From Owenia fusiformis (lineage: Eukaryota > Annelida > Polychaeta > Sabellida > Oweniidae): a stretch of DNA of 64,000 nt. The stretch is taken from positions 40,496,848-40,560,847 of the forward strand of contig CAIIXF020000006.1 of NCBI GenBank assembly GCA_903813345.2, in the 5' to 3' direction. A program made the position numbers and the translations under genes. Position 1 is the stretch's first letter. The number at the start of each line of letters is the position of its first letter. Positions 11,448 to 17,400 of the stretch are shown piece by piece. Below the pieces are notes generated by a model. The model was not told where the DNA came from and did not search any database. It saw nothing but the letters and a program-made list of their open reading frames with translations.

Positions 11448-14400
11448 CTGAATAAAACATTAAATGAAGTATGTAAAGCACTGATGTGGTTAATAGACGG
11501 GCCGGGGAACTAAACAACCAAGATCAACTTATTTATAAGGAATTAACACCGAGATTTTATTATTTATGGCGTAATATAAGACCGGAAATTTCATTCTATT
11601 CATTGTTAAAAGACCGAAATCGCGTAGCAATGGCCAGAATAAAATTTTAGGTCATATATTTGACATAGGTCATAAAATCGAGGTCTTTGGTACGATTCAA
11701 ATATGAGAAATAGACGAAAAAACACAACTATTTGCATTTATGAATTCAAGCGGTCATACATACTCCAATATAGACTAGTAAATCAATTGTTCTAGCTATT
11801 ATGACGTCACGTATCATATTACATTTTTTATAATCAATAACTTTAAACGTTTACAAAATATGATATAAATGAAACAAAAAAAAAACAGAAGCTAAAAGTC
11901 GCTGAATAAAATTTCAAAATAAAGATGGCGGTGCAATCAATTTGTTTTACATTCTACTCCTGCTGCCATCTTTACAACTAAAATCTAAATCTGAACAAAA
12001 TCTCACCTGTGTTCTCCCCAGTAGGTCTTCCATTACAGCGGGTTCCTTTTTTCCTTCTGCACACAGAAGACTAAGTCTTTTCTTACGCCCAGTTGGGGTT
12101 AGGCGCAGGGAACCATGCTGCCCTAAAATACATAAGGGTTATGCCCTTAAATACATGAGGGTTATGTCAAGGGATATGTCAAATCTTTCCTTATTTTTGT
12201 GAATATTTGCACCAGTTATTGTTTATAGTCAATCCTGCGATTTTTTCAGACTGTGTTTCCAATTACAATTTGTTCTATTTAATCACATCTTAATAGTACC
12301 ATTTGCTCTGTAAGCACCATTCTGTTGAGATTCAGTCTTCAATTTGTATTGTTTCAAGATCTCTAAAATACGAGTGAAGGAAGGCCTCATATCAGCGTGA
12401 CTATTCCAACAAGATGTCATCAACTTATATCTACAACATAGAAGCTAACTTTAAGAAATAGTACAGTTACACAGGCTTCTTCTTTTGAACAGCAGTTTTC
12501 AGTAAATTGTTGATCAATCTAGTCCATGTTCTTCGGAATGATTTGGGTGCATTGTTGGAAATAAGTAATCCGTTAAATGTATTTATCATTTTAAATGATG
12601 AATGAATCGATAGTCGTGCATCCTCTTCCCTCCCCTCATTATCTTTTTTCTGACTGACTGCATCAGAGAAAGATAAAATGCAATCAAAACAGGGGCTTAA
12701 GACAAAACTAATAAGTTTAAACATGCAAGGATTTGTAAACTTACAATTCTTCAGGACAAGATTCTGGTTTATCTAGACGACCTCCTTCTCTGACAAAGTT
12801 AAACACCTCTACATTTGTACACGCTGGATATGGCTGTTGTCCAAGCGTCATCACTTCCCACATTAATACACCATATGCCCTGTAATATAGCATACAAAGT
12901 TAAACACCTCTACATTTGTACACACTGGATATGGCTGTTGTCAAAGCGTCATCACTTCCCACATTAATACACCATACGCCCTGTAATATAGCATACAAAG
13001 TTAAACACCTCTACATTTGTACACGCTGGAAATGGCTGTTGTCCAAGCGTCATCACTTCCCACATTAATACACCATATGCCCTGTAATATAGCATACAAA
13101 GTTAAACACCTCTACATTTGTACACGCTGGAAATGGCTGTTGTCAAAGCGTCATCACTTCCCACATTAATACACCATACGCCCTGTAATATAGCATACAA
13201 AGTTAAACACCTCTACATTTGTACACGCTGGAAATGGCTGTTGTCCAAGCGTCATCACTTCCCACATTAATACACCATATGCCCTGTAATATAGCATACA
13301 AAGTTAAACACCTCTACATTTGTACACACTGGATATGGCTGTTGTCAAAGCGTCATCACCTCCCACATTAATACACCATATGCCCTGTAATATAGCATAC
13401 AAAGTTAAACACCTCTACATTTGTACACACTGGATATGGCTGTTGTCCAAGCGTCATCACTTCCCACATTAATACACCATATGCCCTGTAATATAGCATA
13501 CAAAGTTAAACACCTCTACATTTGTACACACTGGATATGGCTGTTGTCCAAGCGTCATCACTTCCCACATTAATACACCATATGCCCTGTAATATAGCAT
13601 ACAAAGTTAAACACCTCTACATTTGTACATGCTGGAAATGGCTGTTGTCCAAGCGTCATCACTTCCCACATTAATACACCATATGCCCTGTAATATAGCA
13701 TACAAAGTTAAACACCTCTACATTTGTACACACTGGATATGGCTGTTGTCCAAGCGTCATCACTTCCCACATTAATACACCATACGCCCTGTAATATAGC
13801 ATACAAAGTTAAACACCTCTACATTTGTACACACTGGATATGGCTGTTGTCCAAGCGTCATCACTTCCCACATTAATACACCATACGCCCTGTAATATAG
13901 CATACAAAGTTAAACACCTCTACATTTGTACACACTGGATATGGCTGTTGTCCAAGCGTCATCACTTCCCACATTAATACACCATATGCCCTGTAATATA
14001 TTGCATACAATGTTAAACACCTCTACATTTGTACACGCTGGAAATGGCTGTTGTCCAAGCGTCATCACCTCCCACATTAATACACCATATGCCCTGTAAT
14101 ATAGCATACAAAGTTAAACACCTCTACATTTGTACACGCTGGAAATGGCTGTTGTCCAAGCGTCATCACTTCCCACATTAATACACCATATGCCCTGTAA
14201 TATAGCATACAAAGTTAAACACCTCTACATTTGTACACGCTGGAAATGGCTGTTGTCCAAGCGTCATCACTTCCCACATTAATACACCATATGCCCTGTA
14301 ATATATTGCATACAAAGTTAAACACCTCTACATTTGTACACGCTGGATATGGCTGTTGTCCAAGCGTCATCACTTCCCACATTAATACACCATATGCCCT

Positions 14401-17400
14401 GTAATATATTGCATACAAAGTTAAACACCTCTACATTTGTACACACTGGATATGGCTGTTGTCCAAGCGTCATCACTTCCCACATTAATACACCATACGC
14501 CCTGTAATATAGCATACAAAGTTAAACACCTCTACATTTGTACACGCTGGAAATGGCTGTTGTCCAAGCGTCATCACTTCCCACATTAATACACCATATG
14601 CCCTGTAATATAGCATACAAAGTTAAACACCTCTACATTTGTACACGCTGGAAATGGCTGTTGTCCAAGCGTCATCACTTCCCACATTAATACACCATAC
14701 GTCCTGTTGAAAGTAGCAATGATAAAACAAGTTTGAAGCAATTTGACAGCCCTGTTCATGTTTGGCAATTTGAAAGAATCAACACATTTGACATTGATTT
14801 CCGTACAATTGTAATCCTAACCCTGATTATAATTTCAGTATAAGCAACATAAGTCAGATTCAATTATTAACAGACCTTATACTATCTTATGAAAACTTCC
14901 AATTGCTAAACTTATGGAGTATATTCATAAAGTAATGTAAATTATTTAATTTGTCTGATCAAAAATGATTTTCGCAAACATCATTTTCCATCATCAGACA
15001 ACCATTTTAAACATCTTAATTACTTAAATCATTTATTAAGTATTAAAATTGTTTTACCATACGTCTGACTGCGTAGTAAAAACGCCATCCTTTATTGATT
15101 CAGGTGACATCCACTTTACAGGCAACAGACCCTCTCCTTCCTTCCTATAATAGTCGTTTTTGTAAATGTCACGTGTCAGGCCAAAATCCCCAATCTTCAC
15201 GATCATGTTGTTAACATCTGCACTTGATACCAAGCAATTTCTTGCAGCAATGTCCCTGTGTATGGAATATACAAATAAGGCTAAGGAAATCAAATGTGAT
15301 GCTGGGCCTCACAATGCCGGTGGAGGTTACTTCATAGGTTAGAATTGGATTTCTGGAGAATATGCGGAACATTTTCATCTTTCTCTAAGCTAATCTTACC
15401 GGTGTACATAGTGCATTTCCTCCAAGTACTGGCAACCTTTTGCAACGTCTCTACATATTTGTCCTAAGTGACATAGCTGCAGACCAGGGCCGTTCTGAAA
15501 ATGGGAGAGTGATTGAGACAAGTTTCAAATAATGTAATCTTTTCGAATATTTAAGAGGTCAGAGTTTTAAAAAAATCATCAATACTCTGCTATTTTCCTG
15601 TTGACGTCGAGCCATCAATATCAGAAATATGCATGGGATTATACTCATACCCTTAAAGTCCCCGTCTAAAGTTTGAAAATATTCTTTTATCATTCATTTA
15701 CTATTTGTCAGGACTTAAAAAGTGATTTTAGAGATTTTTGAACAAAAAAATTTTTTTGAAAAAAAAGTTGTGAGCATTTCATTTCTTAAATATTCAAATT
15801 TCCCGCCATTTTTCAAAAAAAGTTGAAATTTCTTAATCATTAAATATTTCTTAATGCATTTCAAAAAAGATTATATTTTTAACACCAATGCAAAGATTGA
15901 ACAAAAGGCACACTATTTCAATAATAAAATGTCATATTTAATGGGCCACTTCAATGTTTTAGCTTATCAAAAATATTTTGAAACATTAGTGATGTCACTA
16001 AGGTAACAAAAACCTTTTGAAAAAAATTGAATTTTTTTTTTCGATGTCAATCTTTTCTAAATATGCTAGACTTTCATAAAAAACAATGTTGATTGTCTAA
16101 CCAGGTTAAAAGGAAGAATAAATTATGTTTTAGATATCATTGTACCATTGGTTTCTATGAGAACTAAAATTTTGAAATGCATTTTTCTCAGAACCATTTT
16201 CATGCACTGATAAGTTCATTTCTCGCTTGTTTATCAACCGATTTTCTTAATTTTTTCGGCAAAACACATGGGAAGATGTATGCTATGCATTGGTATGAAT
16301 TGTGGCTAATTAGAAGATATGAGTGACCTCTAAAAGTTGGTTTTAAATAAATTCACAAATTTTGGAACAAAAAGTCTATCAAAAACCACTTTTTGAAATT
16401 AAAAAAAAAGTTTCACATATCACACTTTGATAACATTGGGTAAGACTACAATATAAGCCAAAGTGGTTTAAACTTTACATGGGGCCTTTAAGTGTTTAAG
16501 AAACCCGATTATTATAATTATAAAAAATGCTGATTGTAGATCATAAACTGTTTTACTCAATAAAAAGCAATAAACATACTTGTGAAGGTCTTGACGACCT
16601 GAGAAACAACAAGAGATCCCCTCCTCCCATTAACTCCAAAATGATATACTGAGGGTCTGTATCGAGACATACCCCCATTAGATGAATAACATGTTGGTGT
16701 CTAAAGTTACTCATCAACAATGCTTCCTTTAAAAACTCGTCCTTGTCTGCTTCAGTTGAGCCTGGTTTCAGAGTCTGTAATTATTTAATTAATTTATATA
16801 CGATCTTTGTATGCAACTATTACCCATAATGCTTTGCAATGCTATGCAGACGACAATGGAAGTCATTTGGTAAACTTATGTAGAGAAGGGATATTATTTG
16901 GAAGACCAGTTCCTACTTGATATGCAGTTATAACTATTTTAACACCATCAGCATGCTCAATATTGATGATCATTTAAAAATATAGTGGTTATTAAGAGTA
17001 AGTTGCCATCACCCAGGAAGTGATGTCATCGATTACCCTTAAAACAGTACTTGGTAAATTAAAGGACGTGTCATAGGTTTTGATTTTTGTTATTGTATTT
17101 CGCTACAATTACCTTAACTGCTACATTGGTGAGTCCTGTTGTTCCATTGATATCCTGAGCAACACCCTCATATACTTCACCAAATGCCCCTCTTCCTAGG
17201 AACTTAGTTAGAGACAATAGATGTCTCGGAAAGTGGGGCAGGGCAGCGATATCCTCCTCATTTGGTATAATGCTGAAATGAGATCTAATAAGTTGGAATG
17301 TTGATGTAATACTGAGTTTATGAAAAACTGTCTATAAGTACACTTTTTATGAAGAGACAAGTCTGTCAGTTATTCCTTTAAAGGGTCATAACGATATTAA

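Follow-up and report, generated by a model that had tools for sequence, protein, structure and literature searches.

Why does an intron of a conserved receptor-kinase gene of Owenia fusiformis hold 18 truncated copies of the exon that follows it, and how could the gene still make its product? We examined this question in a window of 64,000 nt (GCA_903813345.2, contig CAIIXF020000006.1, positions 40,496,848-40,560,847 of the forward strand), and all positions given without a contig are positions within it. The initial annotation had assigned the locus to a ROS1 kinase gene and had suggested that the array might act as a tunable brake. The assignment holds, as the top match among solved structures is human ROS1 with 390 bits (309 for ALK), and on this similarity we take the host gene to be ROS1, which is apparently single-copy in this genome. 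Its kinase exons have open frames and a conserved sequence that includes the HRD and DFG motifs, so that no decay is visible in them.

Anatomy of the ROS1 array

The kinase exons and the array are arranged as follows.

17113..17272, minus strand: ROS1 kinase exon with the glycine loop and VAVK
16580..16774, minus strand: ROS1 kinase exon
15400..15494, minus strand: ROS1 kinase exon
15058..15255, minus strand: kinase exon upstream of the array (DIAARN..DFG..TTQSDV W), with donor GTAAAA at 15057
14704..14728, minus strand: differing intron end before decoy 1, ..TTGCTACTTTCAACAG
12880..14703, minus strand: decoys, 18 truncated exon copies with a unit of 101 or 103 bp
14603..14703, minus strand: decoy 1, the 5'-most copy, which starts GACGTATGG in place of GGCATATGG
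13284..13384, minus strand: decoy 14, with an in-frame TGA
13082..13182, minus strand: decoy 16, with an in-frame TGA
12880..12980, minus strand: decoy 18, with an in-frame TGA
12745..12879, minus strand: intact ROS1 kinase exon of 135 nt, the final copy of the array
12739..12744, minus strand: donor GTAAGT of the intact exon
12286..12430 (3' end not fixed), minus strand: last kinase-domain exon (YKLMTSCWN..)

Tandem Repeats Finder returned a single tandem array at 12793-14707 (period 101, 18.9 copies, 97% matches, score 3559), and splitting the sequence at the acceptor gave 19 exon starts, where the split required ACAG and the number of copies found is the maximum that the spacing permits. 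Both procedures bear out the earlier count of 18 truncated copies, each with its own acceptor. The spacing is the 101 bp described before in 15 units and 103 bp in the other three. Each unit comprises 87 nt of exon, not 81 as first proposed, and 14 nt of intron end (16 nt in units 3, 4 and 7), and the decoys end at base 87 of the exon. Exon and intron of one boundary are thus present in every unit, as in exon-intron-boundary tandem repeats. The AG is kept at all 19 acceptors, and 17 of the 18 decoy acceptors have final bases identical to those of the functional one. Among the 19 copies a strong donor (GAATT/GTAAGT) is found only on the full exon, which is indeed the sole complete copy; the decoy unit ends offer only TTT/GTATGC or ATT/GTATGC as donor candidates, and the GTATGC within the units is weak. 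The 18 units fall into 11 distinct types with eight variable exon positions, and all unit matches (19/19) lie at one assembly location on C6.

The acceptor before decoy 1 had been described as different and more pyrimidine-rich. It does differ, but it is not richer, with 11/17 pyrimidines both there and in the functional acceptor. The intron end ..TTGCTACTTTCAACAG is probably the acceptor that preceded the array and would then be the ancestral one; comparison of the unit intron end with this presumed ancestor gave no clear match (P 0.06) and is only suggestive of a diverged copy. We also considered whether RNA structure could account for the repeat and rejected this, because the predicted fold of three units (304 nt) is not more stable than that of shuffled sequence (z 1.20; 88 of 100 shuffles were at least as stable).

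Reading through from each of the 18 decoys leads to a premature stop after 13, 39 or 61 residues, in agreement with the claim that use of any decoy would destroy the kinase. The requirement of the last of 19 acceptors for normal ROS1 protein, which had also been proposed, is likewise what the reading frames predict. The frame shift attributed to every decoy is not found, since five of them (1, 5, 10, 13 and 16) lie at a distance divisible by three.

Exon-edge arrays in other receptor-kinase genes

The ROS1 array is one case of a recurrent process in this genome, as shown for receptor-kinase genes. The C12 receptor-kinase paralogues carry acceptor-only arrays of 25, 13 and 2 decoys, with the intact copy last and bearing a GTAA donor. 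Their unit of 131 bp consists of the full 112-nt exon without its donor and a 19-nt intron end; AATATG occupies the former donor position, and the unit end has no 5' splice site. The AG is present in 41 of 43 acceptors (functional ones counted in), and decoy 1 of paralogue A lacks it where paralogue B retains it. A and B have 26 versus 14 units and are ~91-94% identical over long aligned stretches including the array, so the copy number of the boundary repeat differs between recent paralogues. A stop is reached from 39 of 40 C12 decoys within the read-through examined. At a further locus, L009, a single exon stands behind a 37-nt stub bearing the C12 intron end; a kinase exon was found downstream, and the same search found none upstream, which is no proof that the C12 intron end can serve as the sole acceptor.

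Paralogue E (C12:35745892 onward) shows the mirror image, namely 15 contiguous copies, 71-96 bp long, of the exon 3' end and its donor, the first of which is the end of the intact exon. Two further donor-type copies lie ~3.5 kb on, and together they account for 17 of the 22 matches of the search. Paralogue A has no donor-type array, and the 8-nt TGATTTTG sits where the array of E is joined; when the 148 nt that precede this donor in A are compared with the initial 110 nt of the intron, no exact direct repeat is longer, and B keeps 6 nt of it at the corresponding breakpoints. The same genome has exon-edge arrays in both orientations, as seen in its receptor-kinase genes.

The C12 decoys were compared with functional exons. 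Decoys show 22 silent versus 40 amino-acid-changing or stop distinct changes (34 of 40 units used), and functional exons 28 silent versus 12 changing (nine of ten exons used; Fisher P 0.001), which points to looser coding constraint in the decoys. The 22 silent changes compare with 14.0 expected when transitions are allowed for, and the excess over a uniform expectation has a Fisher P of 0.034; thus, the decoys are not perfectly neutral or have been fed by functional exons. The last seven linker bases are invariant across the 34 units; the invariant run that spans the AG has P 0.05, and the longest such run anywhere P 0.62. These invariant-run tests revealed no clear conservation of the C12 decoy acceptors, and we accordingly rejected demonstrable selection on them.

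A possible further exon array at C10:2256896/2257074, where two kinase matches lie 178 bp apart, was rejected because a search there gave no tandem or direct repeat of exon size, and a lone C12 intron-end copy at C7:22366687 has no kinase exon match in the surrounding 2 kb. Genome searches for kinase, myosin, ABC, fn3, phosphatase and P450 gave 139, 144, 92, 25, 150, 99 and 106 matches, which were inspected by eye for short-period clusters. One domain search scored 133/133 candidates and the others a part of theirs, for example 19/194, or 124/876 for Pkinase. As a control, the Pkinase search at this coverage did not return the known ROS1 or C12 arrays, so that silence in the domain searches says little. 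A candidate myosin cluster of mutually exclusive exons was met in the genome, and fn3 domain repeats were seen on C58.

Proposed origin and tolerance of the arrays

We consider it likely that the ROS1 array is an exon-edge minisatellite, which was duplicated across one edge of the exon, expanded, and tolerated through exon definition. A tandem duplication would have joined a point 87 nt into the exon with a point ~14 nt before its acceptor, and repeated unequal exchange or slippage, to judge from the anatomy, may then have multiplied the unit until 18 copies preceded the intact exon. Because one exon edge was duplicated, the extra copies bear an acceptor without a good donor and the intact exon stands at the far end. 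The initial annotation noted that neither the donor nor the remainder of the exon is ever repeated in the array; this does not support a brake, as the geometry of a duplication across one exon edge yields the same. The spliceosome would most likely define the exon from the sole strong donor, pick the nearest acceptor and handle the array as intron, and this exon definition, by which the sole good donor is matched with the final acceptor, would let the gene survive. Some leaky decoy use would yield truncated, degradable mRNA. Both the ROS1 and the C12 arrays are most likely copying accidents that are tolerated and that splicing would have to ignore.

According to PMC9225289, preference goes to the splice sites that lie nearest across the exon when introns exceed ~250 nt. 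ROS1 lies beyond this limit, with 354 nt between the upstream donor and decoy 1, and its intact exon measures 135 nt. In C12-B the distance from donor to decoy 1 is only 146 nt, where the rule predicts decoy use, and tolerance is therefore not assured there. Section 9 of the same source describes upstream acceptors as preferred overall, and this preference, as regards acceptors, as weaker in exons with large introns.

It is rather unlikely, in our view, that the array is a damaging expansion whose early decoys are often used, with alleles that are partly or wholly loss-of-function, slightly harmful and possibly a polymorphic VNTR. The stops reached from all ROS1 decoys and from 39 of 40 in C12 would agree with this, as would the classical proximity rule, which favours the upstream acceptor (PMC9225289, section 3), and the AG lost from decoy 1 in C12-A and kept in B; the open and conserved ROS1 kinase exons and a decoy 1 beyond the 250-nt limit speak against it.

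We regard the tunable brake as unlikely. Here 18 decoy acceptors would sequester U2AF/U2, so that splicing is delayed or diverted and part of the ROS1 transcripts is retained or terminates early; receptor output would follow array length, and, if this were true, array length would set the amount of active receptor kinase. The intact ROS1 decoy acceptors, 17 of which end like the functional one, the stop behind every decoy, the comparable arrays in other receptor-kinase genes and the mammalian decoy exons that restrain intron removal (PMC12017769) are all consistent with such a role. Intact AGs (19/19 in ROS1, 41/43 in C12) are also expected under constraint. Against this, the mammalian decoy exons need a 5' splice site, which the C12 units lack and for which the ROS1 units offer only the two GTATGC candidates. 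The brake is further weakened by the looser coding constraint of the C12 decoys and by acceptors without clear conservation, and it does not predict the mirror-image donor array in E. The anatomy, once taken to point to a brake, lends it no support, given the recurrence of arrays in both orientations and the TGA in decoys 14, 16 and 18. The broader proposal that one-sided exon arrays of both orientations within receptor-kinase genes are recurrent, selected, length-tunable splicing brakes that set the amount of active kinase in this lineage seems to us improbable.

A single exon copy stuttered by the assembler is very improbable: the assembly does contain gaps (500 N at 57001-57500), but the 11 distinct types among 18 units, with their eight variable exon positions, argue against simple stutter, as do arrays with different units at other loci. 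A mobile or dispersed element that carried an acceptor and captured exon pieces is scarcely credible and was rejected as the source of the intron ends, because, although the ROS1 and C12 unit intron ends are alike at 13/17 positions (post hoc P 0.0016), the ROS1 unit occurs at one genomic place, unit matches stay in the array or the paralogue family, and few intron-end copies with <=1 mismatch lie elsewhere (15/19 ROS1 copies inside its array; 32/38 C12 copies inside arrays or the L009 stub).

These arrays constitute a natural experiment on splice-site choice, with 19 near-identical acceptors against one strong donor in ROS1 and a C12 series of 25, 13, 2 and 0 acceptor decoys, to which related genes add the mirror-image series of donors. 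The cDNA of this one species would be a direct test of the exon-definition and proximity rules. The arrays also illustrate a route from coding exons to satellite DNA and are a trap for annotation pipelines.

Comparison with known systems

Mutually exclusive exon clusters consist of complete tandem exons, each with both splice sites. The arrays resemble them in having tandem copies of one exon within one intron, but the copies are one-sided fragments, and instead of an acceptor and a donor on every copy the ROS1 array has a strong donor on the last copy only. Mammalian decoy exons in retained introns, such as that of OGT, depend on their 5' splice site (PMC12017769); like them, the array copies are non-productive, acceptor-bearing intronic sequences that give a premature stop if used, whereas their 5' splice site is missing or poor. 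An intron of a potato RdRp gene was gained through tandem duplication of an intron-exon junction (PMC4974935). There too an intron end and part of an exon were duplicated, and the copy took over the acceptor and branch signals of its parent, but one duplication activated a cryptic donor and gave a new intron, while here the unit is repeated many times and has no good donor.

In a search of literature mostly outside subscription journals, one-sided exon satellites of high copy number appeared in no title or abstract, and the closest system among those found was that of PMC2812944, which describes variable internal tandem repeats (ITR) that lie at exon-intron boundaries within segmental duplications of the human genome. 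As in those repeats, the units span an exon edge and copy number varies between recent paralogues, here those of C12. The human boundary repeats can alter splicing and create new introns or alternative transcripts with RNA support. The arrays of O. fusiformis differ in having up to 25 extra copies, in lying within conserved receptor-kinase domains and in occurring in both orientations.

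The ROS1 gene and its exon array

The genome assembly comprises 498 Mb in 525 contigs, and the minus strand of the 64-kb window, which lies on contig C6, encodes a receptor tyrosine kinase gene. When its joined kinase exons were compared with solved structures, human ROS1 came top (390, 387 and 384 bits), followed by a 2,311-residue chain labelled tyrosine-protein kinase receptor (367 bits) and a chain labelled EGF receptor (346), with ALK (at most 309 bits) and the insulin-receptor family (281-291 bits) lower; the Pfam profile PK_Tyr_Ser-Thr scored 325 bits. A search of the own genome with the ROS1 protein found near-identical exons at the window locus only, and the other kinases among the matches listed reached at most 65% identity per match; within the reach of this search, ROS1 is thus single-copy. 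The window also contains an assembly gap (500 N at 57001-57500) and two large minisatellites, with 49 copies of a 67-bp unit at 48218-51508 and 29 copies of a 40-bp unit at 36237-37396.

The truncated-exon array that the initial annotation reported in this gene is real and a striking observation, with 19 acceptors belonging to 18 truncated copies (decoys, numbered from the 5'-most) and the intact exon:

15058-15255, minus strand: upstream exon ending SDVW; the array lies between it and the next exon
12745-12879, minus strand: intact exon, next after the array, with the last of the 19 acceptors

Each unit combines 87 nt of exon with 14 nt of intron end (16 nt in units 3, 4 and 7). Decoys and intact exon share 98.0% identity over the 87 nt, and the 18 units fall into 11 distinct types with eight variable exon positions. 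The variants are partly silent (GCA>GCG, GAA>GAG, GCG>GCA) and partly residue-changing (A>T, Y>F, A>V, F>I), and decoys 14, 16 and 18 have G>stop; the Y and A are retained in the functional exon and likewise in human ROS1. The array acceptor has 11 pyrimidines in 17 positions, as does that of decoy 1, and five other acceptors of the gene span 7-13.

Exon-edge arrays in other receptor kinases

The same search also matched contig C12, in clusters spaced 131 bp. The best structure match of this family was a chain labelled EGF receptor (247 bits), then FGFR and RET (about 160 bits), and ROS1 was absent among the best 60; judging from sequence, the clusters are arrays in a receptor-kinase family other than that of ROS1. 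Their unit joins 19 nt of intron end to a complete 112-nt exon (37 residues and one base) that lacks its donor, and a GTAA donor is found on the final unit of each array. The C12 paralogues are as follows:

Gene A, exon starts C12:35774919 to 35778262: 26 units, AG intact in 24 (lost at decoys 1 and 8)
Gene B, exon starts C12:35726046 to 35727755: 14 units, AG intact in all 14
Gene C, near C12:31429600, minus strand: 3 units, AG intact in all 3
Paralogue E, C12:35745.6-35756.4 kb, between B and A: no acceptor array
Donor-type array of E, C12:35745892-35747230 and 35750781-35750946: two parts, separated by about 3.5 kb of other sequence

Kinase-exon matches flank the arrays of A and B, upstream with HRD and DFG and downstream with STPYTGMKGKEV.., and the stop codons in the downstream matches fall outside the conserved kinase core. 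Nine other fetched exons of the family are single (L006-L010 and L017-L020, with L006 and L007 more distant). One of them, L009 (C12:8467329-8467485), has a 37-nt unit stub in front of it and, beyond the stub, unrelated sequence; it may represent an array that collapsed or moved. In array A, two units contain an additional 36 nt joined at a common TATG, which looks like a recent slip within the array. The intron ends of the ROS1 unit (TATGCAATATATTACAG) and the C12 unit (TATGCATCATATTGTAG) are alike at 13 of 17 positions (post hoc P 0.0016), and neither is clearly like the acceptor preceding its own first copy.

The array in paralogue E is a mirror image. There the exon before the one repeated in A, B and C, HRDLAARN..DFGLSRDVGERDLYSRTSQ, has behind it repeats that comprise the exon's 3' end, the donor and the start of the intron. 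Fifteen copies of 71-96 bp form an uninterrupted series, of which copy one is the intact exon's own end, and two further copies lie about 3.5 kb on. One-sided exon copies therefore occur in both orientations in this genome. Paralogue A has no donor-type array, and a comparison of its last 148 nt ahead of that donor with the intron's first 110 nt gives TGATTTTG (8 nt) as the longest exact direct repeat. The E repeats are joined at the two places where this repeat lies, and 6 nt are kept there in B. These join places and the repeat spacing (105 nt in A versus 96 in most E units) fit an origin of the donor-type array by slippage or unequal exchange between short direct repeats, as we infer. The intact exon always stands at the array end that supplies the splice site missing from the copies; this is a necessary outcome of tandem duplication across one exon edge, and its position is not evidence of design.

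Acceptor choice and change in the decoys

Read through to the real donor, all 18 ROS1 decoys reach a stop after 13, 39 or 61 residues, and the distance is divisible by three in five of them (1, 5, 10, 13 and 16). A normal kinase thus requires the last acceptor. Every unit also contains a poor donor (TTT|GTATGC; ATT|GTATGC in decoy 7), whose use would yield an 85-nt frame-shifting exon. According to Carranza et al. (PMC9225289), the sites closest across the intron pair below about 250 nt and those closest across the exon are favoured above it, and the strong preference for upstream acceptors is significantly weaker in large-intron exons. In ROS1 the donor is separated from decoy 1 by 354 nt and from the functional acceptor by 2,178 nt, and the intact exon measures 135 nt; by this rule the last acceptor would be favoured, with leak possible, the 250-nt figure having been measured outside this organism. 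Decoy 1 of gene B lies at 146 nt (the equivalent site in A, at 145 nt, no longer has its AG), and the same figure, from outside this organism, would predict its misuse. ROS1 and gene B thus offer a clean testable contrast in acceptor choice. The functions that the initial annotation suggested for the ROS1 decoys, a tunable brake or a source of truncated receptors, are possible and found no support beyond that.

On C12, 39 of the 40 decoys meet a stop within the read-through examined. Changes were counted in the 34 of 40 internal units of exactly 131 nt and, scored against the decoy consensus rather than on a tree, comprise 62 distinct exon changes (22 silent, 38 amino-acid-changing and 2 stops), versus 28 silent and 12 changing in nine functional exons with L008 dropped (Fisher P 0.001). 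The 22 silent decoy changes exceed the 14.0 expected with transitions allowed for, which speaks against full neutrality of the decoys. Seven bases ending in AG are invariant across the 34 units; in a shuffle test such a run at this position has P 0.05, and an equally long run at any position has P 0.62. The acceptor count is somewhat flattered, since the acceptor lost at decoy 8 follows one of the six dropped units and the one lost at decoy 1 of A precedes the first unit.

Recurrence and known relatives

The larger finding is the recurrence of exon-edge satellites in this genome, in both orientations. All arrays found so far are in receptor kinases, but they came to light through a kinase query. 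Six Pfam families searched in the genome and read by eye gave no further short-period truncated copies; this survey is a weak control, since part of the candidates was scored in five of the six and the Pkinase search did not list the known ROS1 and C12 arrays. Twelve myosin-head exon matches on contig C9 (37986009-37994334) all fall on one profile segment (about 18-84), lie roughly 300-2,000 bp apart and could be a large alternative-exon cluster.

Related structures have been described: exon-intron-boundary tandem repeats in human segmental duplications, varying between recent paralogues (PMC2812944), a new potato intron from a duplicated intron-exon junction (PMC4974935), and decoy exons in retained introns, which act through the 5' splice site (PMC12017769). 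Unlike the decoy exons of PMC12017769, the C12 units lack a 5' splice site and the ROS1 units have only a poor form; we therefore class both sets of arrays with the exon-boundary tandem repeats, as a variant of these, rather than with decoy exons.
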